From Xanthostigma xanthostigma (lineage: Eukaryota; Arthropoda; Insecta; Raphidioptera; Raphidiidae), in the NCBI GenBank assembly GCA_963575645.1, contig OY754466.1, positions 36,612,001 through 36,676,000 of the forward strand: a DNA stretch of 64,000 bases. The letters run 5' to 3'. Position numbers and translations under genes: made by a program. The first letter of the stretch is position 1. Each line of letters opens with the position of its first letter. The notes beneath the pieces are model-generated. The model saw only the letters and a list, made by a program, of their open reading frames with translations, had not been told where the DNA came from and did not search any database. This document shows positions 234-40,300 of this stretch, piece after piece.

Positions 234-497
234 AGATTAAAGGATGAAACCTGGGTGGCATAGGATCAATGAACTTTGCAAATACTGAAGGTTTTTTTTA
301 TTGCATTTTATTGTCTGACGTTTCGGCAAACTTAAAGATGGCATAAAGTTTGCCGAAACGTCAGACAATAAAATGTAATAAAAAAACCTTCAGTATATGC
401 AAAGTTCATTGATCCTATGCCACCAAGTTTCATCCTTTAATCTTCGAATATTTAAAAAGGATCATCATCACTCTAAATTATTAGAGTTCTTCTTCAC
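234..497. mobile_element. Hammerhead-motif mini-element, 264 bp, with 18-bp target duplication
   Basis: Flanked by identical 18-bp copies of AATAAACTTTTAATTCGA (216-233 and 498-515). Most of the insert is a palindrome (about 229-448) whose arms carry GACGTTTC (317-324) and GAAACGTC (355-362). The centre CTTAAAGATGGC..GCCGAAACGTC is a degenerate hammerhead-like core, one step from the CTGAAGA form at 7532. Likely a retrozyme- or Penelope-like non-autonomous insertion; no protein is encoded. Confidence 0.6.
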
Positions 498-1066
498 AAT
501 AAACTTTTAATTCGAGTAATAATGGCGTGTAAATAAATCGATCTGAGGTATTATTTAATAATAACAAACGAAGCAGAAAGAGCAATTTTGCAGCAAGTTG
601 ACATATCATGCGAGATGTTTTGCTAGACAGTTGATGTGTGTGACACATCCTCTTTAAAATAGAATCAATGAAGGTGGGTAGGTACCTTACAATACACACA
701 ACGTGTTTATTTTTCCGAAGCAAAACTAATTTAAACTTTATTTTTGTTTTATATGAAAGTCAGGTACACAAAATGAACAAAAAACACGAATGAAGGTTCG
801 TTCTAGTTGAAAATACTTAAATAAAACTTTCTCTAAAAAAGATCTGCTGTTCTTATGACAGTGATACATTTTTCATATAAATATTCTGTGACGTCACTTA
901 GCTCCGCTGAATGTGGTTGGTTGATTATAACAGTAGTTAGTATTAGACGCATCAACAAAGCACTTTTAACGTCAGCGGAACTGAGTGACGTAACATGTCA
1001 CATAGGCCAGCAACTTAAATATATCGCTTCCGTAATTCATTCAAGATTTCTCAGAGTTTAAGATTA

Positions 1067-1662
1067 TACAGGGTGCGGCAAAAGTTTGGAAACGGTCCGA
1101 TATTTCCGGAGGGTTAGGTTTGCGAAAAAAAAGTTTGGTACAAAAGTTGATTGGTTTTCAGTTTGCAATCGTCTGGCCACTGAATCCATCCCTCAACCCC
1201 CCACCCCCCACGTGGGGGTGGGGGTGACTTGGAAATTTCAAATCGCGACCCCAATTTTCTTTCGCGGATTTGGGTTCAGAGAGCAAAATTAGGCAACTTT
1301 TGTTCGAAAATTTTTTTTTGAAATTCGTTCAAGACCGTTCTTGAGGGAAAAATGCATGAAATTGCGAATAAAAGCGAATTGTGAGTCTGGAGGGTGGAGG
1401 ATGATCCGGTTCAAAAAAATTTTCGAACAAAAGTTGCCTAATTTTGCTCTGTGAGCCCGAATCCGCGAAAGAAAATTGGGGTCGCGATTTGAAATTTCAA
1501 AGTCACCCTCACCCCCACGTAGGGGGTGAGAGGTTGGGGGATGATTCAGTGACCAAACGATTGCAAACTGAAAACCAATCAACTTTTGTACAAAACTTTT
1601 TTTTCGCAAACCTAACCCTCCGGAAATATCGGACCGTTTCCAAACTTTTGCCGCAGCCTGTA
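1067..1662. mobile_element. Fold-back MITE, 596 bp, TA target duplication (Tc1/mariner-like)
   Basis: Begins TACAGGGTGCGGCAAAAGTT and ends with its inverse, flanked by TA on both sides (1065-1066, 1663-1664). The arms are about 250 bp and include a G-run block (CCCCCACGTGGGGGTGG). The middle has no coding capacity. Apparent reading frames are read-throughs of the arms. Confidence 0.75.
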
Positions 1663-1929
1663 TACAAATTGGCTTTTTTTCGCACTGCACAACATTTCTA
1701 TACATATAGAAACCTTATTGTGTAATATATCAATGCTTATATAAGTTGCAAATTTTAATGAATTGTGAGCACACAGGTAATTCCTATATATATAAAAAAT
1801 TTATCAAAGTTCCCGAAAATAAATGAACTCAATGGGAATAATTTCAGGTGTTTAATCAAAAGCTGTCATCATTTAACTCTATTAGCATGCCTATGTAGAT
1901 TATATTAGAGTTTTATTTTCATTGTTCTA

Positions 1930-2215
1930 CAGAAGCATGGCTACGACGCAAGCATATTTGTGTCCAACAAAATGGGGACAACTTCGAACAAACTGTGAAT
2001 ACTTGATAATGACATAACATATTTCCATAGTGACATAACATAACGTCAGGACCGATCTCAAAATGTGATAAAATTTAATAAAACTTTGGAAGCCCGTTCC
2101 TCTTTCATTTTTGAATTTTGATAGAAAAGTTACTTGAAATATTTGTTCGTTTGTTTGATTTCTCTAAGCTGTTAAAAAAGGATAATCAACTTAAAAATCA
2201 GCCTGCATGTGATCC
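1930..2215 (+). repeat. Dispersed repeat, copy 1 (see 35485)
   Basis: About 280 bp matching 35485-35760 in the same orientation. Shared blocks include GCATGGCTACGAC, TACTTGATAATGACATAACA and TTTCCATAGTGACATAACAT. A partial inverted copy lies at about 35270-35390. Family unknown. The following 2215-2290 holds a 'ACTTACGAACAAACCC' repeat tail. Confidence 0.7.
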
Positions 2216-2443
2216 GACTTACGAACAAACCCGACTTACGAACGAGTCTCGGGAATGCAAGGTGTTCGTAAATCGAGGAATACCTGTATTAATAAATAAT
2301 GTTGCACATCATTGGCGACTACTGTATAAGACTAGCTTATTTTTTTTTGTATCAAAATTGAGTTTGCTAACATTTATGTTCATTTGACCTAGCTTCGCGG
2401 GCCGCAACATGATTCCTGGCGGGCTGCATGCAGCCTTGGCTTA

Positions 2444-3991: not shown

Positions 3992-4082
3992 TTAGAGTGT
4001 TTGCAATATTGATTGAACGATCCACTCGACCGTTACTGGATTTTTCGAGTACTAGCAAAATAATATAAATGTTATTTCTTAC

Positions 4083-4343: not shown

Positions 4344-7300
4344 CTGTAAAAAAAAGAAAAAAATTTTAGTCGTTGACTTACAATAACAATTAATGATTTA
4401 TCAATAACTTAGTGAAAATTAAAATTATCGTGCTCGAGATACATACTGTAACGAGGCGCGTATTGTTACGCACATTGTTATTGGAACCACATAGAAGAAT
4501 GCCAAAGTATGTTCCAGAATGCGTCTGAAGAACTTATATAAACAGCGCTAGCGTGGAAGGCAGGGCAGTCAATTAGTGCGCGACGTAATAAATAACCGTT
4601 CCAAGATAAATAGAGAACCGCGACATAAATATTGTGTGCACAGTAGTTTAGTGTTATTATTGTTGTTTTAGAATTCGTTTGTTTTTCGTAATTTATTTTA
4701 TTATTTCATTTTTGCATTAGTATAAGGTATGTTCCAAGCAGCCAGCAAACGGACACGAAACCGTCACCGTCATGCGCAGGTAGCTAAGACGTGTTTCAAA
4801 AGCGATACAAAAAGTTTCGTTTTAGCTACTGTGCATGCGGAAGACGGTTTCGTGTCCGTTTGCTGGCTGTTTGGAACATACCTATTAAGAACTACTTTTT
4901 AGTTTGTTTTTGATAACATTTATTTTTGTAACTTAATATTTTTACCACCGACAAAGAACAGTTTTGTCAGTTTCGTAACAAAATAGTATTCTTTGCGCGT
5001 ACCCGCTATAAAATAGCTGATTTTCACAGAATTTTTAAAATTTTTTACTGTTCAATTTCGAGAATTATGAGCAAGTCCACTTCTAATTGTAGGCTGCGTT
5101 GGATGGTATCGCGACTACGTTTTTTTTACTTTACGCTCTCGTGAAAAATGATTTATTTTAGTATTGTTAATACAGACATGAAAAGAGGTTATTTTATAGG
5201 AACGTGTGCAAAAAGTTATTTGTGATGCAATGTAAATGTATTGCAATATTCAGCATTCTTAAATTATTGTATTTTACAGCTATTGTTGATCGTCAATATA
5301 ATTGCCAATGTAAACACATAAAAAGTTTAAATGCATATTGTCGACTATAAACTGGTTTATTTATTATCGTTAGAAATGTTAGAATAAATGCATTGTTGTA
5401 GTGTCGATGTCAATTTCCAATAAAAAAGTTGCAATCCAATAATGGTTAAAATAGTGTTGTTACAAAATTGAAATTCCCATGGATTTGTTAAGTGTATTAC
5501 TACAGGGTCGTTCCGCGTTTCAAAATTTTATACATTTTAACAGAGCATTTTAATGTAAATCAACTTTCTCTTCTTCTTAATTAAAAACAAGAGTTAACGA
5601 CATAATATATGAAAGGTTTTCCAATATCGCAGAGCACTGATTAAGATCTCGTACTGTACATTTGTAAAATTGCCAAAAACTACATTCAACAATATTTAAA
5701 ATAAAAGATTGTACATTATACACGTTACCAGCAAGCTGAGTAGGCTTGAGCCTAGGGCGGCAATTTTGGGGTCAGAATTTTTTCCTTTTTTTTAGCCGGT
5801 AGAATGACTTTTACCGAATGTACATGTGTAAGTAGCACACATTACTCCGCCTTAATAGTCGAACATGATTAAGCTTTAATTAGCTCAGAAATATATACCC
5901 AAAAACTATTTTTTGTGCAATTTAAACCAAATTACTTGATTATAAAAATAATCTGGGCACTGACAATAATTTGTAGAGGCAAGAGCGGCAAAAATTTAAA
6001 AGCCTATACTTGGGAAATGTGTAAATTCGCCACTGATAGACGCTACATAGCTGATGAGTGATGACATTAACTAATTTTTCTAATTATTCATTATTTGGAA
6101 TCATTGTTATTAAATAATGGCCAATCAGCGTTGCCATATGGTACCCATTCTCATATGTGGCCAAAGTAATCGTTGATCCTAACTAATTTGCACAGTCGAG
6201 TTTTTTCTGTGATACACCCTGTATATATTTATGCGTGGGCATAATAACTCTCGACAGACCTTATCGAATTAAACGTTGAAATCCACCACCGCACGATGTC
6301 TATTTAAAAATGGGCCTAATCGGGGCATTTTAAGGGTGGTATTTAGGGTTTTATGCCCAAAAATGTGCTGCTATAATTTGAACATCGGCCTGACAGAACC
6401 GAATTTACAAATTTTGGGAAAACACTAGTTTGCGGATATGAAATAATGAATTTTTTAACTGAAGGATGCATTTAATTTGGTGCAAATGTTGGATTGACCA
6501 TAATAATGTAACTAAGAAAAAAATGTATTATTTTAAGGGATATATTAAGGGGTTATTTTTTTTATATTGACCAAAAACTGTCTAGTTTATATAATAAAGT
6601 CACACTGTCTGTAATAGCAAATACACTTTATTTTTGGCAGGGTTTGGCACTGCTACCCGTATTTTTTTTGTCTTAGAGATTAAAAAAATGTATTTGTTAT
6701 TTCCAAATAATGCTAAAAGAACAAAATAATAATAATATAAAAAAATATGCACCCTTGCTTGATTTTCAACTGTTTTCCAATTGGAGAGAGGAAGAACCCA
6801 CGTACTACACAATTTGATTCTTATGGTAACAAGAGAATTTTAGGAATTGGAATTAATATTTTTTGCTTTTTTTAATCCTAAAGTAGTGGAAATTTTTTTT
6901 GTTGCACCTGTATATAGTTAAAGTTATTCCAGAATGATTTTTATACGATGTCTGTTAGTTATTATAATGGAGCATAGGGGAATCAAATGCAAATGATTAT
7001 GTTTGAATTTATTTTGTTTTGATACCTGCGGGAATTTTACTACTATACGTTCAGATGCTAATAGCGTAAAACAAGAAAATATAAAAAAACGTTATGTAAT
7101 ATAGGTCACGGTGTCGTAACTTCTATTCAAAAGTGTTTTTATCAGGTGAAACTTCATACTCCAGCAATCTTTTAGATCATACTTAGAGTTTCTTAAACAA
7201 AAGAGACATCTCTTTACCTTATGTAATATGCATATTATGACCTTCTAAATATAGCTTCTCTAGCACAGCTTCGTGTATGGCTACATTATATTGACAATAA

Positions 7301-10300
7301 GTTATTTGACTTGTCTTTAATTTTTGACGCTGTTAATCACCAATTTGTTCTAGAAAAGTCTGCGCATGGAATTAGGAGCAATGCTAAAGATTATTGGAGA
7401 AAACCGTCTGAAAAACCGTAACAGATATTGATAATTGGCTCGATTGATAGCTTAGCTATTAGTAATAATGAAACAAACAGTTGGTCTCACTATCCATTTG
7501 TTAAAAAGTAACATTGTTTTAATTGTTGCACCTGAAGAGGGCAATGGTTTAAATGAAATTGCCGAAACGTCGTACAGTTTGTTGTGATTTTCTTAAATAA
7601 ATTAATGGATAGTGAGACCAATATTGTTCGTAATAGATATTGTCGTCAAAATCAATTAAACAAAAGCAGACAGACTTGAAATAGCAATTGGTGTCCCGTA
7701 GGGCAGCAATTTAGGACCAATCTTTTTTCGTTGTATATGTAAATAACATTTTTGACTAGATAAAAGTTGGACAGGCGATTACCTATTTAAATTTATTTTA
7801 TGCAGACGATACTTAATTTGTTTGAAATAGATCGCGGGACAATTTTGTACTTAAGTTACTTCTAAATGATTTTAATAAATGTTTCAAACAAAATTATCTA
7901 TCAATAAATCACTTAAAGGAAACTCGTATAGTTTTTAATTAAACCAGTCATGATTCTGGTTATAGTAATAATCTAAATAAAGAAAAATGTAAATGTTCGT
8001 TCGTTCAAAATCTTCTTCACCGATTGCTTCGAAATTTTGACATAATACGTGCGTGTTTTTATATATCTATTTTATGAATGTCAAACCTCTGCCAGGTGAA
8101 ACTAGTGTTGGGCATAATCGATATATTTTAATAATCGAATGAATCGAAATAATCAGTTTTTCATTCGAATTATCGATTATGAATGATGCGCAAACTTGGC
8201 AATTATTAATTTCGTTTTATTTACTTTTACAGTATAAGCGAATGATCATTCAAAATATCGATTATGAATTATGTTCTAACTTTGCAATTTCGATTTGTTA
8301 ATATTACTTAACACAATATTAATAATGGAATCACTGGTATGATCGAATATATTTGTTATGCCCTAGATGGATACATCGTCAATTTACATAATGAGTTAAA
8401 CATTAAAATTGAAATTTAAAAAATCCTTAATGTTAGAAAAACAATTTTTTAGGAATTTGATTTAAATTCGAACTTAAATTCTTTACCACACCGAATTTCA
8501 GTTAAGCTATTTGGTAGTTTATTAAATAAAACACTGCCAGCAAAGACTTCCCATCCCAGTACATGTAGATGCAGAAACCGAATGATATATCGATATATCA
8601 CATTAATATCGACAGTGGACATAGCAATAGTACTGTGTCGGGATTTAATATTCATTTCATATTTCATAATCGATTCAAGCGAATGATATCTCGGTTGCCA
8701 TGATCGAATGATCGATTATTCGGCCATAATCAAAATATTTCGATTATATCATTCATAATCGCCCAACACTAGGTGAACCATGCTTTTCTTAAAAAAACAG
8801 CGCCATCTGTTGAACTTAACGCAATACACACGCAATACTAAATATTGCTCACGCCGGATAGCAAGCTTCATGACTAGCATTTTCAATAGATGTCAAACCT
8901 AGGACAGGTAAAAACTTTCTTTTTCGAAAAACAGCGCCATATGTTGGACGTTAAAGTAACACACGCTATACTTAATATTTTCCTGCAATGGGAGCGCCAT
9001 ATGTCAAACGTAACAGCAACACACGCAATACTAAACATTGCTCATGCCGAACTGGGTGCTTAATCACAGTTGGTGTCACTTAAAATTTTCAACGTTTTCT
9101 ATTGCATTGTTGAATTGAATTTTTTAGATCCAGACACGGATCGTTTCTCACATGGACAATTATATGTTGCGTGTTCTAGAGTCGGTTAACAGAGAATCTC
9201 TATATATCAATGGAACAACAAAAACTATTGTACTTATACCCACAAGCATTGTGAAATTAAACATATTGGAAACGTGTGCTTTTCCTTTTTTTCCATTAAG
9301 CCAGACTGAGCCACAGCAACTCTCAAGTCGTGCCAAAAGAAGTTTTAGATCGATAATAAAGAATTATACTTAGTTCAGAAAATTTTAGACAATAAAATGT
9401 TTTAAATTGCACAACATAATTTTTTTGTGGTACAAAAAATTGTATAGAGTTTACAAACACTTAAAGTAGAAAATTGAATACAATTCTGCGGAAGTTTTCC
9501 AACTTTCCTCAACTTCCAACACCCACACTGCACTGCTCTTGTTGAGTACAGCGCAGACTAATGTAATATAATAAAAAAAAGAAATGTATAAAGTGTGTTT
9601 GTATGTTGTCACGTTGTGTCTTAATTTTTGCAAATCACGTCCGTCTTTGTTACAGCCTCTTTCGGTAACGATTCTTTTCTTTTTTTGACATTGTTTTTCA
9701 AACTATAGAATTAACATCTGAAAATATTTGAAGACAAGCATTTGTCCCTTTACATAAACTTAAAAAATCGTAACAAGTGTAAATATACTTTTTTAACTGT
9801 AAATATACAAATAGCTAGCTTCAACTGCAGGCTATTGTTGTTATGATGAAAACACCCGTTTTTATAAACAAGAAAAACAGCGCACAATATATTTTAGTCA
9901 AACCAAAATTCAAAAAAGATATTGTTGTTAAAATACACTTTTATGGTGGATGTGAAGTGTTTATGGTGTAGGTGCAGGGTAGATTTCTCTTTTTTTACGT
10001 ATATCATATTTATATCTAACCAGTGATGAATTTACGCCTAGGACCGTGAGGCCCGGGCCTAGAGCGGCAATAGTTTATGGAATGAATCAACTCTGAGATT
10101 CATTAGAAAATACTGAAGATATGTTCTCTGCACAAAATATATGAAATATTTTACATTCACGAAATATTCGCGATGTTTGTGAAAAATCGAAACATTTTTA
10201 TTTTTTGTCTAATTTCAGATTTTAACACAGAATTTTGGTTAAAACTAGTTTTATCGAAATAAATTACAAACATTTACATATTTTTATATATATAAAAAAA

Positions 10301-13300
10301 ATACTATCACTGAGTCGTTCTGAAGGAGGTTCAATTTTTTTAAAGTTCTTTATTTTTTACTTTTTAGCGGTTTTGCAATATGTACTTTCACGTTATGAAT
10401 CGCCTTTTTCCCCAATAGCGTAATTCTTAACAAAAAAAAAAAAAAAAACGGTATATTAAATAGAAAAAGTATAATCAAAATCGATTCACAAATGCGGGAG
10501 ATAAGAGTTAAACATTCTAAACAAAAGGTCGTCGTAATTTTTTAAATTGGTCAACATCACAAAAAGTTATGGCTGAACATACAAAAAAAAATTCTTTTTT
10601 TGAAGGCAGTTAAAAACGATTGAACCGATTTATATGGAAATTTCATGATACCAATCGAACGAAACGACGTTGTAATTTTTTAAATCGGTTAATTCCTCTA
10701 AAAGTTATAGCTCAACAATGAACATACATAAAAAAATTCCAGCCAATAGGCGACGCGACCATTCCAATTTTTTAAAATGTTGACATTTGATATAGTATAA
10801 TAACGAAAAGAAAATTCTGATATCGCGTGAGCTGACGCGGGTAATGGCTAGTATTTAATATGATATTTGATATTCGTTGCCACGGTTTACCTACATACTA
10901 TTATGTTCCACGTCATGTAAAAATTAATCAAAGCATGCTTAGCTAGTTTATTTCGGACAGATCTACAAAATAAAAGAACAGATGATTTCCGAAACTATTT
11001 TTTTTGACAAAACTTTCTTGAAAAAATAAATAGAATAATAAGCCGTTATGAAAATTATACCACTATTATAGAAAAAACACCGTTATAGCATATATCTCTT
11101 CTGCGCATGCGCCGATTTTCCCCAAAAACAATAGGGCTCTTCATATTTGCATAGCAAACATCCTCTCAAAATTTGGTTTCAATCCGCTCACCCGTTTGAC
11201 CTGTATCGTGCTTACAGACAAACAGACGCACAGAGTTTTTCTAAAAATTTAAAATATGTATTTTGGGTTCAGGTATCTCAAAACGAAAAGATAGTGCAAA
11301 ATGTTTGAAAAGTGATTTTTGACATAAACTAGTACCATTCCTTACTTGTGGGTTGGAATGGTAAAATTCACGCGTCGGGAATATTATAGCCTCCTCTATT
11401 TTGAAATCCGTTAAAAAACTATCTATAATAATATGTAATAACTGTATAACATTAATAATGTGACACTTGTTATTAACAAATATTTCAATTGTAGTAGTGG
11501 TATATTACAATTCCATATGTTCGTGGACGTACACTGTGCTTAGAAAATGTAGATTGTGTATGTTTTTTTATCACGTTACAAAACAATTCTCACGTAACAA
11601 CAAAGTAACTTTATTACCTGTTTATACCGTTTATATCTATATAGTTACTTGCAATATTGTCACCAGAGCAGACATTAAACTTGTTTTTTACAGTTTCGTT
11701 TATTAGTGAATGCTAGCAAATCTAGCATTTCTTTATGTACGTAAAGTAACATTGTATGAATGGTATTAAAAGAAAGTTTCACTGACTCAGTAGTAGACAT
11801 TTCCTTATTTTCCAAGTTGACATAAGTGCAACATGCATGACGACAGATTTTGGAATTCCGGTCTATAATGTAGGTACATGTCTCCTATTTCCGAAAAAAC
11901 AACATTATTTCAGCAATAAATAACATTTTAACGCAAATTATTGCATTTTTATCTTTCTATTTTGAAGTAATCGTGAAATCATTTGTGACGTCACACCTTA
12001 GTGACAGCTAACATTAGATGTTGTATTTATGGGTGTAGAGCTGTGGTTCAGAGATATTTAGTAGAAAGGTATGTAAATTTACTTAATGATATAATTTAAC
12101 TACTCTTTATTTTTATTATCGTCACAGTCATGCGCAGTAGCTAAACAGAGATTAGAATGGTTCTAAAACTGTCCTTTAAGCCACAAAACAGTGCAAAGTC
12201 GACGCATGCAGGTACAAAAAGGATACAAAACAGTTTCGTTTTAGCTACTGAGCATGCATGACTGTGACGATAATATTACCGTTTGCAGAGAGGTTGGAAC
12301 ATAGCTAGTGTATATGGAGGCCTCGGCGTACGAGTATAACTGGTTACTTGCTCTTTTGCAGTTTGATAAATTAGGTTTGTGTCGACTCTAGTAGGTATAA
12401 TTTTGTTTTCAAAGAAGTTATAAGTGCTTAGTTATCATCTTTCTATAGCAAGTTTTACAAACTAATAATTGCATAGGATATGAACTGTAGATTGGCTGTT
12501 CACTTTATTTGTTCAATTTGTGAGAAGGAAACCTGTCAATTATCATAGTCTTTACTTTGTTCAGTTCCGAGGCGTACTCAGTATGTTTTTTATTTATTTA
12601 GTAGTGGGCCGGTTCGGTTTGGCCCGAATTTCTAGATTGCTACCGTTTTTTCGTCGACTTACGTTGCACGATTGGTCTCCACGAAAAGCGCTTTTATATC
12701 AACACGATCCATCCTGAAGGTATAATATATTCTAAATAGTTCCTACTGCCTCTCGCCGAGAAACGGTAATTGATGTACCGGCCATCTTGTTGAGGTATTC
12801 CATGGTTTCCCTCAATAATTCCAGATAAATATCGAAATGGTTCCTTATTCACGGCCATGACCGATTACCTGTCAAACTCCTATGCTCAAAATTTGCCTAC
12901 CTTATCCTTAATTTCCTAAAAATTCCTTCACTCGTCCATTGCTATTATTTTAGTGAAAGTTAAAAAAAAATGTATTATAGAAAATAACACGAAGTGTGAT
13001 AGATGGAAAATAGTAATGGTGCGAATGGCGTCTGTTATGACATAAAGTCGAGAAACGGACGTTAAGCATTATTATTATTAATATTATATTATATTCTAAA
13101 TAGTGGTGAAAGAATTTTTCAAATAGGTGCAGTGGTTCCGGGGATTACCCTCCGCATACACACAAATTTACGCAGCGCACTCTCTCTTTATAATATTAGT
13201 ATAGATAATAGATATAGGCAAGTAAAACAGCGAATTATAAACAAATATCTAATATACGTGTATCGATTATTTATTTTACACTGTACGACAACTGAACCCT

Positions 13301-16300
13301 CCAGATGCGAATTTGATATGTTTCTATAGTAAGTACCTACATAAAATAATCTAACCTAACCTAAAAAAAACCCCAGCTAAATCGCACCGAAGGTTTCGTA
13401 CAAAATTGTAGGTACCTATGTAAACAGTTCGTCCATCACGGAAATCAAGTCTTGAAGATTTTTCCCGCTTAGAGTCGCGGTCAGTTTGTCAACTAAGTGT
13501 GTAATTGCAATGAGTTAGGATGAACTACTGAGCTGTAGGTATTGTATTTTGTGGCTATATCTGATAGCCTAGTTGTTGTGCCGTGTTGTACGCGAGATTT
13601 CTTAAATTGTGCTGTATAAACGCATCCCGGTAGCGGACGCTTGTTTTGCATAAGAACTGTTACTGTGTACGTGCGTTGCATGTTGTTACTGTTTATAAAC
13701 ATTATTTTTTTGTGAAGTATCTATAAATTTATTTTTTTCGGATTTTTTCCTTTACTTGTGCTATAAGACATTGCTTCTTGCCAAATTTCATGATTCAGGT
13801 CAACGGGAAGTACCCTATAGGTTTTGATTCCCAAGAGTCTTCATAGACAGACAGACAGACGGACAACAGAATGATCCTATAAGGGTACCTTTTTTCACGG
13901 AACCCTAAAAATCATACAAAATAAATTTTCAGTATCTATAAAGTGAATTATTGTTACAATATGATATGCTTCCCAATAACTCAGTATAGTTTTTGATAGT
14001 AAATTTCGAGTTGAATAAAAAAATTTCAGCCAATTGGGCGACGGGACCATTCCAACTTCAAAAATGTTGACATTTGATTATAATAAAGAAAATAAAATTT
14101 CTGATATCGCGTGAGGTGACGCGGCTAATGGCTAGTATTCAATATGATATTAACTATTCGTTGCCATGGTTACCTACATAGTTCCACGTCATGTAAAAAT
14201 TAATTAAAGCACGCCTAACTAGTTTATTTCTGACAGATCCATAAAACAAAAGAGCGGGTGATTTTTTTTTATTTTCAAAATATTTCCGAAACTATAAAAT
14301 TAGAAAAAACATTTCTTGAAAAAATAAATAGAATAATAAGCCGTTATGAAAAGTATACCATTATTATATAAAAAAATACCGTTTTAGTATATATCTCTTC
14401 TGCGCATGCGCCGATTTTCCCCAAAAACAATAGGGCTCTTCATATTTGCATACCAAAAATCCTCCCAAAATTTGGTTTCAATCCGCTCATCCGTTTGACC
14501 TGTATCGTGTTCACAGACAAACAGACTAACAGACAAACAGACTAACAGACAAACAGACTAACAAACGCACAGAGTTTTTCAAAAAATATATTTTTTGGAT
14601 TCGGTGGACCTCAAAACGGAAAGATATTGTAAAATTTTTGAAAAGTGATTTTTGACCTCAACTAGTACCATTCCCCACTTGTGGATTGGAATGGTAAAAC
14701 TATTCCAACTTTTTTACCATTCCAACCCACAAGTGGGGAATGGTACTAGTTTAGGTCAAAAATCACTTTTCAAAAATTTTACAATATCTTTCCGTTTTGA
14801 GGTCTCCCGAATCCAAAAAACATATTTTTGAAAAATCTCTGTGCGTCTGTTAGTCTGTGAACAGTGAACACCATACAGGTCAAACGGATGAGCGGATTGA
14901 AACCAAGTTTTGGGAGGATGTTTGGTATGCAAATATGAAGAGCCCTATTGTTTTTGGGGAAAATCGGCGCATGCGCAGAAGAGCTATATGCTAAAAAGGT
15001 GTTTTTTATATAATAATGGTATACTTTTCATACCGAATTATTATTCTATTTATTTTTTCAAGAAAGTTTTGTTTAAACATGTTTTTCCTAACCTTTATAG
15101 TTTCAGAAATATTTTGAAAATAAAAAAAATCAATCGCTTTTTTGTTTTATGGATCTGTCAGAAATAAACAGTTCGGCATGCTTTGATTAATGTTTACATG
15201 ACGTGGAACATATTATGTAGGTAACTATGGCAACGAATAGCAAATATATTGAATTCTAGCGATTACCCGCGTCACCTCACACGATATTCAAAATTTTATT
15301 TTCTTTATTATAATCAAATGTCAACATTTTTGAAGTTGGAATGGTCCCGTCGCCCAATTGGCTGGAATTTTTTGTATATAGTAGGATACAAGAACTCTTC
15401 ACTGTTACCACTATCGGTGAACACACTGTTTATTTCAGTGTAGTAGATATCAATTTATTTAAATAAATTGAGGAGAAACCGCATTTATTCAATAAAGTAT
15501 ACTGTCAAAAAAAAGGATCGCTATCTTTTTTATTGGGTGATGTGAAGGAAAATTGAATGCTTACATTATATCTGACTCTTGGATCGATGAGAAGTGTCCT
15601 AGCTACTGCAAGGCTGCCCGTGCTGCTGGCTCCTTTCACAGCTCCTTGAGCGTGACTCTTTAATGATCCCACTGAGCCTTTTAACAGGTCCGGCTTGTCT
15701 ACCTCCGGGCCTCCGAACTCCTGCAGCTGCTGCAGCCAACAACATAACATCGCTTCAATACCTTCGTCTACCTGAAACAAAATTAAAACCTTTAATTATT
15801 ATATAAATTGAATATTTTTATAATATAAGACTAATCGAGGGTGTAGCTGTTTCTTTGTGTATATGGCGTTTTCATGTTCTATGGTTCCTCTTTTATAAGT
15901 CGTAAGTTCTAAAACTGAGTTTAAATATACGTATTATTAAAAAATTACAGCCAACTGCGCGACGGGACCATTTAAACTTCAAAAATATTAATGAAATTTG
16001 ACATTTTATAAGGAAAATAAAATGTCTGTTAACGCATTCGGCGACACGGGCAACGGCTAGTATTAAATATTATGATATTTGCTACTCGTTTCCATGGTTA
16101 CATAATATGGTAGCAGTTGATTTTTTTATAGGTTCAAAATATTTCCGAAAAGATAAAGTTTAGAAAAAATTATACAAGACTTTCTTGGAAAAATTATTAA
16201 AATAACAAATCATTCTGAAAAGAATACCCTAATAACAGAAAAAATACGTTAAAGCGCATATCTCTTCTGCGTATGCGCCAATTTTTTTTACGGTTTATTT

Positions 16301-19300
16301 ATCTATTAATTTTTACAAGAAAGTTTGGTAAAAAAATTGGTTGTCTGTAAAGTCGGTTTACGAACGATAGTTTTACGTGATAACGTATTCCGTAATACAT
16401 AACCTAAACCTCCCAAAATTTGGTTTCAATCCGCTTATCCTTGGTGTCGGAATGATAAGAAATGTCAAAAGTGACGTTTGCAACTTACAAAGTATTATGT
16501 TCTAATAATAATTAGTTATTCCAATACTTAACTTAGAAGGCGTTGCATTTCACAATATACTAATGTCAAAAAATTGAATTAAACATTAGAAATGCAGCCG
16601 TTTTCATGTTAAGACAAGACATACGTTTGCTTCTAATTTCCATGTACGGCAAACAAAGACAACCGACCGCGTCGCGCCATGCATTAGACAACATTGCATT
16701 TATACAGCTATTTTTCTATATAAATTTGTATAAAATATTTTTCTATATAAATTTGTATAAAAAAACTGTTTAGGCAAATTCTGTTATACGAAATCTATGT
16801 AAAATGTTCTCCTCTTTCGTTTAAGACTGGTTTCAAACCGATATGATTTAAATTGAGCGAGAAATTAGCAAAAAGCACGCACACGGTCAGGCGGAACGTT
16901 ACGTGTTATGCATTATGCGTTACGCGTTACGAACATTAGGAACGTTACGTTACACTTTTTCGTACATGCAGCCGGTGTTTTATCAATTTATAATATTGGT
17001 GATTCATCAATTTATAAGACGTTATCACGTCAAAAAATAAAAATATAATACTTTTACATCCATCAATTATGAATGCTATTGTTAAACCCTTACTGCTTAC
17101 ACAATTTAAGATGTTACACTTCACATTATAATTTCTTTTTTGTTAAATTAAGAATTATAACGACAATTTTGTATCTAGGTCATTCGTGTCCGGAGGGAAA
17201 ACAAGAAGGCATATTTTCAGATGTCTTCAGGCGAAAAAGATATTTCTTAAGAAATGAAATATTTATTTTTACGCTGGGTTTAACAGTCGGTAAATAATAA
17301 ATCATACCTTGTATTTTGTATTTTTCTAGAAATCACGCGATATTAGCACTGAACAAAGAAAACACGTTATCAAAACACTAGCATATTATCACAAATTAGT
17401 CAGTCTTAAAGTTCGACAAATATTGCATCTATAAGTTTTTCGAAAGTGTATTGATACGGATACTTTTGTTTTGATGTACCCTGTTCGCAAGGTTAATAGA
17501 TACACATAGCTTATTTTGTTCCATGAATGACATCAACTAGCACACCGTTCACATTTTTATCAACCATGAAATATCAATTAACAAACCCGCTGGAAGACGT
17601 CATCCCCTCATTACTAACAAACGGAACGAGGTAACATCTGTATCTACTAACCTTGCATAAGCGGCGGATTAAACTTTAATAAAGCATTATGTAAAATATT
17701 AGCAGTAGATAAACTGCATAGTGCATTACCGTATAGACGCTCAACAATTGATATTAATTACGTCTTAATAGTGGCGTTATGCCACTATTAAGAACACATT
17801 TTATTTGAGGGGGTGAAGATACTCGGATAGTTTTACCCCGCGTACTCGGTGATTTGTAGATAGTTTGGATAAAAGATATCTTTTTTTGCCCGAAGAACTC
17901 GACCCCTAGGGAGGATTTCTTGTGACCGCAGAATACATTACAACAAGTTGAGCAACTTTCATTCGAAACATTTTAAAAAAAAACTTAAATTTTCTGAGAT
18001 ATTTTGCCGTTCCGGGACTTTTGTGTATATGTTACGGTTAATACAAGAAAATAGTTTATTCGCGAATTAACCGGCTAATACCCGAATTAACCAACGTCAA
18101 GTATTGGTTAATTCGGGTAATTAGCCGATTAATTCGCGAATTAACTACTTTCTTGTATTAACCGTAACATATATACTTGATAAGATTACGAGTTACGACA
18201 TATAAATATTATTTATTTTGCTTATTATAATTTTTTAAAGTTTACAAAAAATGACAAATCTATACATTTTTAATAACTTTTAAATATTTATATGATGTAA
18301 GTACGGTTAATCTTGTTCCGTGGAATTCCGGGAGATGGGACTTTTTGTATGAAATTTCCTGCTCTTTCAGAATCTTCTTTGTGATTTCAGATATCTGCAA
18401 TAATTTTTGAGGTATTTGCAAATAACCAAACCCCTATTTTTTTTAACTAAAAAGTTTATAAATTTTGCAATTTTTTCGTCCCACTTCATTTTTGACGTGA
18501 TAACGTCTTATAAATTGATGAATCACCAATCTTATAAATTGATAAAACACCGACTGCATGCACGAAAAAGTGTAACGTAACGTCCCTAACGTTCGTAACG
18601 CGTAACGCGTAACGTTCCGCCTGACCCTGTGCGTACTTTTTGCTAATTTCTCGCTCAATTTAAATCAGATCGGTTTGAAACCAGTCTTAAACGAAAGAGG
18701 AGAACATTTTACATAGATTTCGTATAACAGAATTTGCCTAAACAGTTTTTTTATACAAATTTATATAGAAAAATAGCTGTATAAATGCAATGTTGTCTAA
18801 TGCATGGCGCGACGCGGTCGGTCGTCTTTGTTTGCCGTACATGGAAATTAGAAAATAACGTATGTCTTGTCTTAACATGAAAACGGCTGCATTTCTAATG
18901 TTTAATTCAATTTTTTGACATTAGTATTTTGTGAAATGCAACGCCTTCTAAGTTAAGTATTGGAATAACTAATTATTATTAGAACATAATACTTTGACAG
19001 TTGCAAACGTCACTTTTGACATTTCTTATCATTCCGACACCAAGGATAAGCGGATTGAAACCAAATTTTGGGAGGATGTTTGATATGCAAATATGAAGTG
19101 GCCTATTGTTTTTGGGGAACATCGGCGCATGCGTAAAAGAATATATCTCTTATAATGATGTTTTATAAAATAATAATATAGTTTTTAAAACGGTTTTTAC
19201 TCTATCTATTTTTACTAGAAATTTTTGTAAATTTTTTGGGTAAAATCGGCGCATGCGCAAAAGAGATACATGCCATAGTTGTTTTTTATATAATAATAGT

Positions 19301-22300: not shown

Positions 22301-25300
22301 TTTTTGCAAAGTAGGTGTTAATTTTTCTATAAATTTCTGTGTAAAGTTAATAATTTTATGTTGTTTAAATAAATATGATAGATCGGCATTAAATATTTTT
22401 TCTAATGTAGATAAAGTTACATTTTGTGAATGATTTTGATGACGATTTTCGTTACTTTTATTATTATTACTACTATATTGTACATTGTTGGAAGACGAGG
22501 GACTAACTTTAGTATTATTGACATTAGACAAGATCAAGTTATTTATAGAGTTATTGGAAGACAGGATATTATTTGAATATGAATGTGAGGTTTGGAGATA
22601 AGGTATTATCGATATGACATCTACTATTATTATAAATGTGCCGAAACGTTGAGAGACTCGCATGTTGTCAATTGTTGACAATATTGACTGGCCGACTGGA
22701 TGCATCGATGCACATATTATTATAACTGAAAAGAAAGAAAAACAAACTTCAAAAACAATGTGTTTCATGAAATAATAAAAACTACATAAAATTATTATTT
22801 ATAAATAGATATACATTGAATTTCATACGTGAGTTTTGTTGATACGGTAGCTATAATGCATTACAAAAAATCGTTCCACATAAAATGCAACATAGACCGG
22901 GCGTCCAAGGGTGGTTCGTATGCATTTTCTGCAATGCATTGAAATTCACTGTGTAAATATCTATACAGTGGATTTCATTTAAGACGCAATGTAGGTATAT
23001 ATGATTGTTGTTGATATGGTAGATATTATGAAAATCATTAATGCATAAAAAATCGTTCTATACATATACCGGGTCTGTGTTAAATTTTATGTGGATTTTC
23101 TATAATGAATCTAAATGATTTCCATATTCTACCATATCAACAAAAGTCATGTGTATATTCCATTTTAAATGAAAACAGTATAATGTGTTTCATAAGAAAC
23201 GAAAAATGTTATGATATGATGATATGATATGATATGATATGAAAGTTGGTATAACGTGTCCGTTTAAGCAAAAAGTACACATGCACATATTTTGAATTAT
23301 TATTGCAAGCACAGTTTGCGGAAGTATTATTTATTGTCGCTTTATGCGCCAGAACTGAGTTTCATTCATTCAAGTATAGTTATTCTAAACTAATTTCGCA
23401 AGAAATCGATTCAAATTGTCGCTTTTTGAAAAGAGGAGATTTAAATTGAATCCATTTTCAAAGTGATTTGAGTTCATAATACGTTCCAAAATAGTAATTG
23501 AAAATCGAGAACAGCAGTAATATTGTTGGTTAGTCTGTACGTACGTACGTATGTACGCGACGTACGTCTGAGCTCTACAGGTTCAGTTTTATAAGCTTTT
23601 ATTCAAATTGCTTTTCCTGTCTGTTTGTCTGTCTGCTAATAATCTTGAAAATCGAGTTTTACGCACTTCTGGTTATTAGATTGAGTTGAAATTTTGCATA
23701 CGAGTACAGTTATTTTATTCGCTTTACTTACTATCAAAACAGAGATTTATTAAAATTCAGTGAAAGGCAATCAGTAGCTTAATTGTTATAAATCAAAGTC
23801 ATTCAATATATTTATCCGCAAGCAAAATACACTTTGATGACCCAATATTCACAGTTCAAAGAAAAAAAAATATTTAAGGTGAGTGATCAACGTTTGCGAT
23901 TTTTAACTTCTCGCCATAAAAATCAATGATTTTCCGAAAAATCGGGAAGTTATTGTTTTCACCTCGATTTTCGAAAAACTAGTTTTCGTCAGATCTCGAC
24001 GTTTTGGGGTCTTAGGAAGCTATTTTGGCGATGATGTCCATAGGGCTGTATGTGCGTGTGTGTGTAAATACAAGTTTAAAAAATTTTTAGTAATTTGTTT
24101 TTTTGGAATAGTTTCTAAACAACTAAATCGATTAATTCCAAAATCAAATCAGCTCTTCTCTTCAAAAAACTGTGTCGATTGCCGCAAACCGCATCTAAAT
24201 CGGTTCATTTGTTCAAGAGATATCGTGAACGAAAAATTCGTAGGAAAGTGTTTTTTTCTTTTTTGAGCTCGAAGAGCTAAAAAGTAAACTTGCTATATTT
24301 TATATATTTTTGAGCGTTTTGAGCTCGAAAATAGCGGTAAGTTTCAGAGATGCCATGCAGGGTCAAATTTCTTTTCAATTCTTAGTTTCAGAGATGCCAT
24401 GCAGGGTCAAATTTCTTTTCAATTCTTAGTTTCAGAAGTCGCTTTATGTATTCTTTATTTAAAAGATATTATTATCTCCTTATTGACAATAAATCTGAAT
24501 AACCTGTAGTTTCAGCGGCTTGGTGAATTCTTTTGAAATAATGGCCCGCTTTTATAAAAGCTGACAAACTGAGTATTGTCACGAAACTTCAACATTTTGT
24601 GGGAAATTAAAAAAAAAGAAACTCGTAAAACGTGCCAAAACAATGTTCGATGTGTGTGCTATTCTATTGAAGTAATAAAGAATACAGCACCGTGTCTTTC
24701 AGTAAATAATGCTCTTCTCTGTAAACACGTTTTCGTGGTGGTAAGAAAGTGTTTTTAATGTGCGTTATTTTGTTTTATGTTAAGTTTTTGGACGTGGTTT
24801 TTCTGGAGTATTGAATTTGAATAGTTGTTTAAATGTACTATATTAAAATTAGAAAAAAATTCAATTAAAACATACATAATATGAAATTGCAGTCAGTGAT
24901 TCTAAAACAAAAAATATACATTAAGTAACTCAACGCAGACCTCTACCTAATTCTTAAATTGATTCATGAATATTTATAACATACAGTGGTCATAATAAAT
25001 AACAATTTCCTCTTGACAAAAGCGTTATGAGAGGGAGAGTTTTCAGTAGTAAACCGTTTAGATTTTTTTATTTGAATTTAATGCGATAGCTGTAAATAAA
25101 AAGTGACAATTCATGCATCATGCGCAATAAAGACGCCAGTTAATTTTTAGGGACGAACCATTTTGAGACCTCTTCAACCCCCCACTACCTCCGATGCAAG
25201 TTACGTTACAGAACTGAAGTTTTTCAGAGTAAGTCTCATACGTCGATAGGTGAACTACTTTCCAAGATACAAATGTCCGAAAAACATGATTTTGGGCATT

Positions 25301-34300: not shown

Positions 34301-37300
34301 ATTTATAATTTTAAATAATATTACCACGTTGTCACTCGCTTCATCAGATACTGAAGACTGGTTGGCGTTTTACACGCCAATGTGTGGCCGAATACACGAA
34401 CGTTGGGACAAATTCCCTTTGATGTTTCGTCAAAAAATCGACACAAGACGGCCAACGTCCAACGTTGGAGCAAACACTGGCACCAACGCTATAATCTCGA
34501 TCCACACATTGGCCGAGAGTTGTTGGCACCAACATTGGCCAAATGTGCGGTCCCGGCTTTAGATTATTTGCAATTACATAGAAATTGGCTCAGTGGCGTA
34601 ATTATACCACCTGAGGCCCGTGGCAAATTCATCAGATGGGACCCTCTCTTAATATAAAAAAGCTTCACGTTGTAGTTTCATCTTTATAAATCACGAAGTA
34701 AAGTAGATATTGTTTATGTTCTTGAGTTAAATACCTGACTTGAATTGATTAATATTTTTAACCAAATTTTGTAATAAATGTTAGGTTCTTCCTGTCCTAA
34801 TGACCTCTCGGGCTGGGCGCCCCCTCAGGCTATTTTGTCCGTTCTGCCACCCTGTAGTTACGTCACTGCCTCATAAACGTTGCGTGTTTAATTTATTATT
34901 AGAACAATATTATCAATGTACATACTATTATTCACCATTCTATATTATTTAAAATAAACTGCATGAAAACACAATAGGTGTTTTCATTCTTATATAAAAA
35001 TCTCAATTTTCATTTCTACTTGGAAGAGTTGTTCAACAAAAAAGGATTGTTCATACCTCCAGAAAAAATAAACTTCAAGAAGTTAAATTGGTTTTCTGGT
35101 TGACGTATTCTATTTTGCTATAATTCACATCCGTTCTTTGAAAGCTAGTCGACATCACTGGACTTTTCTCTACAGTCCAGTTTCGTACAGATTCTAATAT
35201 TTTGAATGCTTTTGAATAAGGAAATTTTAAATTCTCTCGTGAACAGATATGTGAAATATGTTTTACACAGAGTGATTTTTAAGTTGATTCTTCTTTTTAA
35301 CAACGTGTAGAAATTAAATAGATGAACACATATTTTAAGTAACTTTTTTATTAAACTCAAAAATAAGAGAGAAACAGCCTTTCAAAGTTTATTTTTTTAA
35401 AATCCGGCAAAGAAATGGTAGCACGAATCAAAAATGCATCCCAAATAATTCGCGGAGGGCCCTCATCGCTACTACAAGCATGTACAAAAGCATGGCTACG
35501 ACCCATTTGGGTTCAACAAAACGAAGACAACTTCGGATAATTTCTGTCAATACTTGATAATGACATAACATATTTCCATAGTGACATAACATAACGCCAC
35601 GACCGACCTCAAAATTTCATAAAATTTAATAAAATTTTGAAAGCTCGTTCTTCTTTCATTTTTCAGTTTTAATAATAAAGTGACTTGAAATATTAGTTCT
35701 ATTTGATTTCTACAGGCTGTTAAAAAAAGAATCAACTTAAAAATCATTCTGTATAAAGCACTCATTTCTCTAGTCACTCTAAAGGTCGCTGCACACGATA
35801 GCGGGATTTGTGCTGACTGCCGCGCTGGTGGCGATGATGGAAATGACGTCACTACGGTCTCCGCAGCGTGGTTACAAGCTGGATTTTAAAAATTACAACC
35901 GCGGTTATTTTTCGTCCATGATGCTCTGCTGGCTTTGAGCTTTGAAAAGTGTATCTTTCCACGTGGGTGACGTGGACAAACGTCATAAACAAACATGGCG
36001 ACAACAAAAAACTCCATCTAAAAGAAGTAAACCAACCTATTTTTTCATAACATAAGAAAGACACTATATAGAAAACATTACGCTAAAAATAGTTCAAACT
36101 GTTCATAAATATTCGGTTAAATAAATCTTAGCTTACAGAGGCTTCATATACAAATTGATTAGCTATAATTTCAGAATCCGGCTCTCAGAATATGAAGCTC
36201 TATCTAAAGAACGATAAACCATGAAATACATTACGCAGTAATACGCAATATACAACTCAACAAACGAACTGAAATTAACAAATGCATATTAATTTATCTG
36301 TAGTAACTCATGGACTGAAAATTGCACAATTGAAATTATGCATTTCTGACGCTTAAATTAATACGCCAAATCTAATTGACGCTGTTCATAATGTGTACCA
36401 ATTAGTATCATATACAAAAGCTCTGAAATTACTCTTAATGATTTGATGCAAACCTATATCAGTCGTCTTAACGAATTGAAATTAGTTTCTGTCATTTCAG
36501 ACCAGATTAAAATAAAAGTCGTTCAAGTGGAGGATTCTGCACTGATGATAGAGACTGACATTTGAAGCATGTAATTCCTCGAATATATCGTTTTCGATTG
36601 CACTTCTATAATGAATTACCTAACTACCGACATTAGATGGAAATGCCCCAAAGCTTATTGTTTTACAGAAAGAACAACAAGGATAAAAAGTTTATTACTT
36701 CATGGAATTCATTCAGGAAAATCAGAGTTCAATAAATGGACCCATTTTAAATAGGCGTCGTGCGGTGATTGCTTCCAGCATGTAGACGAAATTTCATGTA
36801 AATTGAGTAAGTCTGTCGAGAGTTATCGTGTTAATACACACACGTACACATTCAAATATACAGGGTGAGGCACATAAAGTGTTACAGAGCAATAGCACTC
36901 AAACTATTGATCAAATCCAAAAATGTTTCAGACAAGTTTTAGTGTTCGAGAAGGCCGTCATACTGCACTACCCTATTATTTTATCGGCGGAGGCGCTGAA
37001 GCTACGTCAAGGTCAATTACACTTTTTTAAACGAAACCATGTATTTTTTTTCGATGACATTATTAACGATTTGAAGACGAATTCAGCAACCTACAACACA
37101 AGGTCATTCTAATCACGCAAAATCGTAGTCGAAAAATCTAAACATATCGGAATATTCACTTTCAAAGGATCCACTAACCTTGGCTTGGGTCTACTTACGG
37201 AAGATGCTCGAAATGATGACTCTCGACTTGTAAGCACTTGTTAACATATCAAAAGATTCTTGAAAATCGTTCATTTTCGCAATCCGATGCACTCACATTA

Positions 37301-40300
37301 CAAGGTAATGCGTAACTAAGTGATACGTCAACAGAAAATGCGTACTTGCTGCCGATAAGAAACATTGGTATCGCAAGAAATGAAAACAGCGTTCAAACAA
37401 GTGTTTACATCTTCTGTAGGTAGACCCAAACCAAGGTTAGTGGATCCTTTGTTATTATTGTGGATTATTCCGATATGTTTCGATTTTTAGACTACGATTT
37501 TACGTGACTATTCTGGATAAAAATAAAAATAAAATAATTTGAATGACCTTGTTTTGTAGGCTGCTGAATTCGTCTTAAAATCGCTAATAATGTCATCGAA
37601 AAAAAATACATGGTTGTGTTTAAAAAAGTGGAGTTGACCTTGATGTAGCTTCAGCGCCTCCACCGATAAAAAAATAGGGTGGTCTAGTATGACGGCCTTC
37701 TTGAACACTAAAACTTTTGTCTGAAACATTTTTGGATATGATCAATAGTTTGAGTGCTATTGCTCTGTAACACTTTATGTGCCTCACCCCTGTATATATA
37801 TTTTTCTTAAACTGTGTATTCATGTATTTAACATCGTTTTTTTGTACAGTTTCCACTTCGAAGCAACTTTTTTCTACACATTTTGATCAAAATTTAGCTT
37901 CAAAAGCGATCTTTTCCTATATATAGAGCAATCAATTGTTTTTTTTTTTTTTTTTTGAGTACAATCTAATGTTCTAGATGTAACAGAGGTTGAATAGACT
38001 GCTTCTGAAGTAAGGAAACTGTGGTTATATGATCACAATCTAAGGTCATTGTCAAATCAAATTTTTTGAAAATCCTTTCTGCAACCCAGCATAATAATCT
38101 CAAACGATTAAAATCTCGAAAAAAATTCTGTCAGAGAGTTGGCGAATAGAAAAATAATGTTTAAATAAATAAAATTTTCGACCAATTTTTCTCAGAATCA
38201 TTCAAACTTTCAATCTTTCGTGCATTCTATTAGATAATAAATAACTAATACTAATTAATTTTTATATTTTTTAGATATTTCTGAAGAAAATCCAAATCCG
38301 GACCGAAACGTCATCTTGTGATATTGATTTGTATTTTTTTATTATTTTTTGTCAATATGTGGTCTGAGAAAAATTGGTCGACAATTTTATTTATTTAAAG
38401 AGTTCTATTCAGACGTTAATCAAAGATTAGAAAAATAATGTTCTCAACTTTCAAAAATTCTAATCAGTCTAACAATTTCCTAATTAAATATTATCAGAAT
38501 TTACCTCATCGTAGTTCAGTTTTCAATAAGATTCGATCGTTAGTGAACACATTTTAATGAGCAAAATATAACTTACTCCGCAATATCATATATAATGTAG
38601 AGACAAAAAGAAAACGTTTTAATTAAAAATATTAATTAGCGAATGCAGGCTTTTAAACAAATTTCTATCTAATGATGTGACCTGTAATGAACGAACCTAT
38701 TTCAAAATGTCTGCTACAGTTATGTCGCGACAGTGATAACACCTTAATCCTTCAAAAACCTGTAACACAAAGCTTTTACTGAAATTACTCTGCCCTGTCG
38801 TTAATTTCAATCTCTACTTTCATACAATCTACCTGTAGAGAAATGTCTCGGCTTCATTTCACCATGACAATATAAATTGTCATTGGCATTTAAAAGAAGG
38901 GTAACGCCGCTGCACACGAGACTTATTTTGCCGCTGGAATCACTGCTGAGACCTAGGCTGGCTGGCGCGCTGACTGCGACGATGGAAATGATGTCACTGC
39001 GGGCTCGCGTGCGTGATCACAAGATAGATATAAAAATTTGAACCGGAACTATTTTTCGTGCTTGTTTGTCTGCTTGTTTTGAGCAAGAACCAACCAGGAA
39101 ACAGTTAAAAACAATTTTTGGGCGAGAAAACATCCAAAAATCGGCATAATTCTTTAAGACTCGTATAATTTTTAATTTTAGAGATATGAGCGTTTAAGTA
39201 TATTTTTCTAGAAAAACTTGAACCGACATAACTTCAAAACGAAAAAAGATACTGAGGTGGGAGTGGTTGGAATCGATTCGGCGAAGTTTTTTCTATAAGA
39301 ATAACCTCAGTTGTAGATCATAATATGTAAACAATAACAGATTTTTTTATATAGGTAAGAAAGAAGGGTTCCCCTTCTTAAAAAAATGGTGAAACTCTTA
39401 AAAATAAATTCGCTCCGTTACGTTTGATGCTAAACATCCTTACAGAAAAAATCACGCTGAATCAATTTTGATTATCTCTTTAAATTTCGCAGATATATCC
39501 GTTTTAAACAGTAAAATATTTTATACATTTAACTTCTATAAATTAAAGTAAGCTACAGGCTTACGTTTTGGTCTAATCGATTCGGCATACTTTTTTTTTT
39601 ATCAGACACGTTAATGTTAAACATATCTGAAATATTCAAATCTAAACAGAAATCTTTAAATAAATAAAATTTATTGAGATATTAAATTATAATTTTATAA
39701 TTTTTTGTCAATATACAGTCTGAAAAAATTGGTTGATAATTTTATTTATTTGAATATCTGAAATATTTTAATATTTTTCCAAGTATTGCAAATCTAACTT
39801 TTTACAAGTCAATAACCATGTAACAAGAGCAGCGATAAATTTTAAGACCGTCAGTGAATAGGAGCGATTTTCATGTCTGTTGCGTTTAGACAAGTGGCGT
39901 GAGTAAAGGCCACTGCACACGAGGCTAGAAACGCTGCTAGATTTTTCTACTAGTTTTCTAGCGCTGGTTTTCTTGATTGCTGTTAAGTGATCGCTTCACA
40001 TGACACTATTTTTCAAGCTTGTTTTGTGGATAGATCTTGTGTGCGCGCACACAGAGCAAAACGTGTCTGTTGTCTGACTCTGAGCAGAATGAAGCCATGT
40101 TGGTTTGTGGGCGTTCAAGTGCCCACGTGACAAGATACTGCTTGATATTGGTTCTTGCTTATACCTGCAGCAAATCTAGCCCATGTTCTAATTTTAAAAC
40201 CTATCTTGTTTAGCCAGCAGGCCAGCCCGCAGTGACGTCATTTCTAGCTTCGTACCCAGCCTACTGGCTAGCAGAACTCCTAGTAGCGTTTCTAGCCTCG

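Follow-up and report, generated by a model that had tools for sequence, protein, structure and literature searches.

In a 64,000-nucleotide stretch of the Xanthostigma xanthostigma genome (contig OY754466.1 of assembly GCA_963575645.1, positions 36,612,001 to 36,676,000, forward strand; hereafter, the window), several short inserts without coding capacity consist of inverted arms framed by direct repeats, and some of them carry a string resembling a hammerhead ribozyme. Which type of mobile element left these inserts, and how did their arms come to face each other? An earlier note on this DNA, made from the sequence alone, had gathered them into one family and suggested retrozymes or Penelope-derived elements. 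The analysis reported here indicates that they are very probably 5′-truncated insertions of Penelope-like retrotransposons (PLEs). The element kind and its mirror-image layout are already known, and the finding is real but mostly ordinary; noteworthy are a near-strict rule on the tail found at one end of the inserts and the expansion of a lineage whose ribozyme core is altered. The genome comprises 623 Mb in 28 contigs; the letters A–E denote inserts of the window, and L-numbers other loci.

Inserts of the window and their target duplications

The inserts, their arms, motifs, and target-site duplications (TSDs) are located in the window as follows.

216–233, left TSD of insert A, 18/18 bases matching the right copy
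234–497, + strand, insert A, PLE 3′-end unit present twice, head to head
~229–333, left arm of insert A, antisense, without tail (unit A bases 149–47, matched on the − strand)
335–499 by alignment, right arm of insert A, sense, with tail (unit A bases 36–201, matched on the + strand)
329–368, + strand, hammerhead-like motif of insert A, the fold-back junction having removed the CTGA box (model E-value, 0.0024)
~448–497, + strand, tail of insert A (unit bases ~150–201), at the right end only, limits approximate
498–515, right TSD of insert A, perfect copy of 216–233
7417–7430, left TSD of insert B, 13/14 bases matching the right copy
7431–7628, + strand, insert B, head-to-head PLE-type unit
7429–7495, left arm of insert B, antisense, tailed (right arm sense, untailed)
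7526–7577, + strand, hammerhead-like motif of insert B, both boxes intact, stem II of 6 bp past a one-base bulge (model E-value, 0.00079)
7629–7642, right TSD of insert B, 13/14
38147–38161, left TSD of insert C, 15/15
38162–38427, + strand, insert C, head-to-head arms of the C unit
38160–38196, left arm of insert C, antisense, without tail (unit bases 198–162)
38202–38428, right arm of insert C, sense, tailed (unit bases 1–227)
38281–38312, + strand, hammerhead-like motif of insert C, both boxes preserved, stem II interrupted, weak by the model (E-value, 0.36)
38428–38442, right TSD of insert C, 15/15
39623–39636, left TSD of insert D, 14/14
39637–39753, + strand, insert D, family of C, more truncated, no hammerhead motif
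Within 39637–39753, arms of insert D, the left with a decayed tail present, the right spanning unit bases 122–198
39754–39767, right TSD of insert D, 14/14
46621–46632, probable left TSD of insert E (ATTGATATGAAG), part of which may be the element's own end
46633–46968, − strand, insert E, left end at 46626 or 46633, right end moved from 46921
~46907–46968, short right arm of insert E, sense, tailed (the long antisense left arm is without tail)
46705–46748, − strand, hammerhead-like motif of insert E, with CCGAAGA as its core and pairing in stem I and stem II (model E-value, 7e-7)
46969–46980, probable right TSD of insert E (ATTAATATGAAG), 11/12 against ATTGATATGAAG

The direct repeats of 14–18 bp reported by the earlier note for four inserts, three of them perfect, were confirmed for A–D (18/18, 13/14, 15/15, and 14/14), as were the inverted arms. 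The inserts do not form the single family proposed there but fall into at least three (A, B, and C/D), E being a distant relative of A. For E, no clear duplication had been seen with the right end at 46921. Because three copies of this family elsewhere (L084–L086) run beyond the equivalent of 46921 and stop near TTTTCTTC, we set the right end 47 bp further out, at 46968, and with this correction E is probably flanked by a TSD of 11/12 bp after all. Insert B is located in a decayed LINE-type reverse transcriptase frame (window 7300–7720, by eye).

To place these repeats in a genomic context, we used a sample of 47 loci, composed of 43 loci from elsewhere (50 were fetched, 7 of which showed a place already represented) and inserts A–D of the window. 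Fold-back pairs of families A, B, and C were scored in 29 of the 47 (25 elsewhere in the genome and the 4 of the window). An exact flank repeat of at least 9 bp was found in 22 of these 29 inserts, with B of the window scored as a miss (14 bp with one mismatch), compared with 17 of 812 combinations in which left and right flanks were swapped between inserts; the repeats are thus more frequent than expected by chance. Among the 22 inserts, the TSD length ranges from 9 to 18 bp, and the A+T content is 86% in the duplicated target bases vs 72% in the flanks. The insertion at L012 lies in a common repeat, five inspected stretches of which have the target site once, i.e., as an empty site, and all 39 other places among the matches listed for this target repeat (40 of 4,199 candidates scored) align uninterrupted across the join. 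In the 18 loci not scored as fold-back, no flank repeat of at least 9 bp was present (0/18), a count that is uninformative in that their 5′ ends may lie beyond the units used.

Several points weigh against a uniform reading of the repeats as TSDs. Seven of the 29 fold-back inserts are without an exact 9-bp repeat, and L017 and L019 share one duplicated stretch, so that the independent inserts number 28, not 29; by eye, these two loci (C5:3.65 Mb and C5:14.28 Mb) contain the same A insert within much the same flanks of a duplicated chromosome stretch. A search with the joined flanks of B, the only window insert covered, gave no second genomic copy and hence no empty site. The left repeat of E is ambiguous, 7 of its 12 letters being similar to the end of the element as seen elsewhere (TATGATG); the duplication of E is graded as probable, not certain, because this repeat may partly be that end.

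Penelope-like source of the repeat units

PLE coding sequences are abundant in the genome, with at least 37 matches to the GIY-YIG endonuclease (150 of 521 candidates scored) and at least 75 matches to one PLE frame (75 of 1,250 candidates scored); all three PLE frames scanned for domain content contain both reverse transcriptase (RT) and GIY-YIG domains. Over 200 of its 201 bases, including the tail, unit A shares 90% identity with the 3′ ends of the PLEs L091 and L092, and unit C is 88% and 80% identical to those of L093 and L098, respectively, both excluding the tail. At L024, a C unit stands after the stop codon of a GIY-YIG frame, and insert E shows ~75% identity to the A-type 3′ ends of L091 and L092. 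These alignments support the assignment of the A and C/D units as 3′ ends of PLEs encoding both RT and GIY-YIG endonuclease, in line with the Penelope-derived origin that the earlier note had offered as one of its two suggestions. Weighing against a PLE origin for every insert, no coding partner of B was found in the genome. Within the window itself, no PLE protein match was obtained with two PLE frames as queries. Just past the A-type 3′ end at L091, on the minus strand (the PLE strand; L091:2–481), an LTR-retrotransposon (LTR, long terminal repeat) integrase-like frame was seen by eye, and the L091 PLE seems to be inserted into an LTR retrotransposon.

The inverted layout is also seen around coding sequences. 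Self-comparison of eight GIY-YIG/PLE loci, chosen because the hammerhead-like motif is present there on both strands, showed inverted copies around the motif in all of them, with arms of 115–944 bp (L077 and L078 overlap, leaving seven places); the fold-back layout therefore belongs also to coding elements. Long PLE frames were also observed paired head to head at G000:C8:30615713/30618035, C4:31520033/31522864, and C1:35772862/35775367, giving an inverted layout in long coding copies. A different arrangement occurs at G000:C7:24097535–24111362, where five PLE RT matches in the same orientation are spaced by exactly 3,097 bases as a head-to-tail tandem PLE array, with no hammerhead-like motif in the stretch between two of the copies (L099, C7:24098900–24100700).

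The outer ends of the inserts fall into two narrow classes, with or without a tail, which are separated by some 30 bases in C up to 50 in A. The inner ends vary between copies from unit base 1 to 195 while the outer ends keep to these two classes, which corresponds to 5′ truncation. These ends bear on the idea that the inserts are a foldback family or miniature inverted-repeat transposable elements (MITEs), i.e., DNA transposons with a hammerhead-like string by chance. Such elements would account for the inverted arms, the flanking direct repeats, and the lack of coding capacity, whereas the TSD length, fixed in cut-and-paste families, varies from 9 to 18 bp here, the two outer ends of an insert are unlike (tail vs no tail), and the inner ends are variable among copies, whose arms correspond to a retrotransposon 3′ end. 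With neither fixed termini nor a fixed TSD length, we rejected this reading, which we regard as extremely improbable.

The earlier note had considered the fold-back layout to be one not known as described. However, the passages available from PMC3846280 report, in Adineta vaga PLEs, inverted head-to-head pseudo-long terminal repeats (pLTRs), one of which optionally bears a tail, and state that these occur also in flies and fish; a curation guide (PMC8969392, in excerpt) names inverted pLTRs with short 3′ extensions. According to the same passages of PMC3846280, the present inserts share with A. vaga Pen2a_Av and others the RT and GIY-YIG partners, the head-to-head pLTRs, the TSD, the AT-rich targets, the 5′ truncation, and a tail (~30 bp) that is optional on one of the inverted pLTRs. 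They differ in the TSD length (9–18 bp in the 22 inserts here vs 8–10 bp there), in the tail length (about 29 bp in C to 50 bp in A vs 31 bp), and in that the inserts are tiny and the motif copies number in the thousands, in contrast to few copies in A. vaga.

A hammerhead-like motif and its altered core

Genome-wide, 7,032 matches were obtained with the pattern GACGTTTC-N8..34-TCTTCRG and 39 with its reverse; the former number counts motifs, not inserts, as an insert may hold two motifs. To examine covariation independently of the copies in the window, one motif was taken from each of 11 loci, i.e., families, outside the window, and 3 pairs of stem I and 4 pairs of stem II were scored. In this alignment, 94.8% of the cells are paired, vs 57.2% in shuffles and 27–58% with the partner slid, and cells altered on both sides number 32 vs 9.6 in shuffles. 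The CTGANGA and GAAA boxes are present in the 11 families by the choice of pattern. Stem II was partly selected as well, five of the families having been chosen by a stem II of at least 3 bp and the others by hand; stem I, which had no role in the choice, is paired at 87.9%. With 15 families, 38 of 45 stem I pairs are formed vs 281 of 630 swapped ones, and 60 of 60 vs 515 of 840 for stem II. In the families listed, stem II starts one base past CTGANGA, leaving a constant one-base bulge. Judged from these alignments, the motif is real, with both stems preserved through compensatory changes, and appears to be a minimal type I hammerhead. A point against this assignment is that the Rfam hammerhead models, a check proposed in the earlier note, gave no match at gathering or relaxed thresholds; the miss is expected because the motif is almost without stem III.

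Within the window, the motif is not as exact as the earlier note had stated. The boxes around a short stem that the earlier note had described for three inserts are intact in B, and in C both boxes persist with a broken stem, while in A the fold-back junction coincides with the CTGA box, which is therefore missing, and D has no motif. E has the arms previously attributed to it, and its presumed CTGA box reads CCGAAGA in place of CTGAAGA. When a covariance model built from the 11 outside families was run on the window, the top three hits were E (7e-7), B (8e-4), and A (2e-3). C was fifth and weak (0.36), below a site outside the five inserts (0.15), and D was not listed. The outside site (window 34319–34353, − strand) has surroundings that matched none of the study loci.

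The motif is frequent beside PLE genes. Of the stretches taken beside 15 PLE frames, a sense motif whose stem II has at least 3 bp is present in 11; a looser pattern adds a motif in L087 and L088, and L099 and L100 still have none. In the review PMC7761336, with reference to Cervera and De la Pena (2014) and to Lunse et al. (2017), minimal type I hammerheads are described in PLEs, scattered by thousands in animal genomes. The present motif agrees with these in its CTGANGA and GAAAC boxes, in stems I and II with almost no stem III, and in being scattered in non-coding DNA with some copies in pLTRs. Similarly, the PLE Poseidon of Anolis carolinensis (PAc, PMC11167929) has its hammerhead at the junction of pLTR and open reading frame (ORF); its cut site is 26 bp after the ORF ATG, and in the motif CTGAAGATG...GAAATGTA of L072 the distance between the end and the first base of this ATG is 25 bases. 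PAc is described in tandem or partial tandem, unlike the inverted pairs of the window type; its hammerhead cleaves with protein, and the motif here has a changed core in the A lineage. In the PLE literature examined, we met no description of a hammerhead inside an inverted pLTR pair; it lies inside the pair because it lies in the pLTR.

The orientation of neighbouring motifs bears on the other suggestion of the earlier note, that of animal non-LTR retrozymes, which are small non-autonomous elements with a type I hammerhead, a self-cleaved circular RNA, and genomic tandem repeats. The small size, the low GC content, the lack of coding capacity, the hammerhead-like motif, and the TSD of more than 4 bp are all features of metazoan retrozymes in the available part of PMC7229834. 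However, retrozymes form dimers to multimers arranged in direct tandem. Among 100 motif matches listed, 16 pairs of neighbours within 1 kb were found, where about 1 would be expected under an even spread, and their orientation is head to head in 14, tail to tail in 1, and on the same strand in 1. Moreover, the A and C/D units correspond to the 3′ ends of coding PLEs, and the core is changed in the A lineage. We rejected the retrozyme reading, with units head to head and not in direct tandem, and consider it very improbable.

The altered core prevails in the A lineage. A-type motifs with an intact GGC stem comprise 865 with CCGAAGA vs 20 with CTGAAGA, two of the latter having a longer loop and resembling the L018 family. 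U4, the second base of the CTGA box, is needed for hammerhead cleavage. CCGAAGA is found also in the coding A-type elements L091 and L092 and in insert E. In the anole PLE, the hammerhead is dispensable for in vitro insertion (PMC11167929), and the spread of the A lineage despite its changed core agrees with such hammerhead-independent insertion. On the basis of these counts, the hammerhead may be dispensable for amplification of the A lineage, which offers a natural test of the need for it.

One tail per insert and possible routes of insertion

Exactly one tailed and one untailed end are present in 27 of the 29 fold-back inserts (tail at the left in 16 and at the right in 11), for which P is ~8e-7 (at least 27 of 29) if ends are independent and even; insert E, outside this count, fits the rule by eye. 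Against the rule stand two exceptions, L032 with two tails and L027 with one odd end, and the facts that the end classes were defined after the alignments had been viewed and that, in three B inserts, any end lacking the tail was counted as untailed. In the 26 A and C inserts, the deeper arm is the untailed one in 13 and the tailed one in 8, and the arms are equal in 5.

The two arms of an insert also tend to be alike. Across the 10 A inserts whose two arms are of sufficient length, the identity is 97.3% within an insert vs 93.7% between inserts, and the own partner arm is the closest in 7 of the 10; private variants occur in both arms of one insert, e.g., two in L009. The C family gave 94.7% within vs 85.7% between inserts (two inserts comparable). 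From this tendency towards shared variants within an insert, we infer that both arms derive from one RNA source. The remaining 3 of the 10 A inserts weigh against this, an arm of another insert being closer than the own partner, which ranks 7th in L020, 2nd in L026, and 3rd in L031.

A route to such inserts can be sketched with the anole PLE protein, which in vitro cuts and extends both target strands and starts reverse transcription inside the RNA at two sites, the tail being the sequence between them (PMC11167929). In the X. xanthostigma PLEs, the GIY-YIG endonuclease might likewise cut both target strands with a stagger, and the RT would start inside the RNA at two alternative sites bounding the tail, similar to those of PAc. 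Each cut end would then be linked to cDNA made from one shared RNA source: both target ends might prime, one per start site, or a single cDNA might fold back and serve as its own template. Synthesis would halt early, and joining of the two cDNAs would leave a fold-back with the 3′ ends outward. The hammerhead would be included because the copied segment contains the pLTR, and the fold-back would not be made by the ribozyme.

In the simplest account, the two target ends would receive cDNA of one RNA source, one from each start site, and the short cDNAs would then be joined. That each target end takes cDNA from one start site, both from the same source, is a possibility that we put forward tentatively, with doubt still somewhat the stronger. 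The same reserve holds for its corollary, also short of probable, that coupled start sites would make a complete insertion a head-to-head pair with exactly one tail, for which the hammerhead would no longer be needed, as in the A lineage with CCGA. Self-priming of the same elements, in which the second arm would be the cDNA folded back and copying itself with no second target end priming, is likewise conceivable at a level somewhat below even confidence. For A. vaga PLEs, it has been put forward on account of palindromes found at the inverted junction (PMC3846280, in the passages available), and the variants shared by the arms of one insert are compatible with it. However, an untailed first arm could not yield a tail, and a tailed arm copied fully would give two tails, whereas 27 of the 29 inserts have exactly one; the cutting and extension of both target strands by the anole PLE protein (PMC11167929) also argue against self-priming. 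Therefore, the one-tail rule favors two-end priming over self-priming, whereas the likeness of the arms fits both. In the anole PLE, no difference in start site was observed between the top and bottom strands (PMC11167929), a result from which pairing as strict as that of the present inserts would not by itself follow.

PMC11167929 leaves the steps of second-strand synthesis in PLEs for validation. The thousands of motif copies, many in very short inserts with both ends readable, constitute a record of strand starts and stops, and one tail per insertion with arms from one source would be a near-strict rule that any mechanism must explain. Neither a strict one-tail rule nor a CCGA lineage was met as a statement in the literature covered; Cervera and De la Pena 2014, Craig et al. 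2021, and Lunse et al. 2017 were outside its scope, and absence from print is not claimed.

Other features were also noted in the window. Copies of another dispersed repeat, taken as non-PLE, are located at 10731–11270, 14018–15373, and 19044–19297, and this repeat is also found beyond the hammerhead motif in L094. Tandem repeats occupy 45712–45890 (58 bp × 3), 49639–49716 (12 bp × 6.5; ACGTACGTACAT), and 56049–56290 (95 bp × 2.5). The only listed ORF of at least 200 codons (21812–22768, − strand) encodes 318 amino acids and is serine/asparagine-rich by eye.

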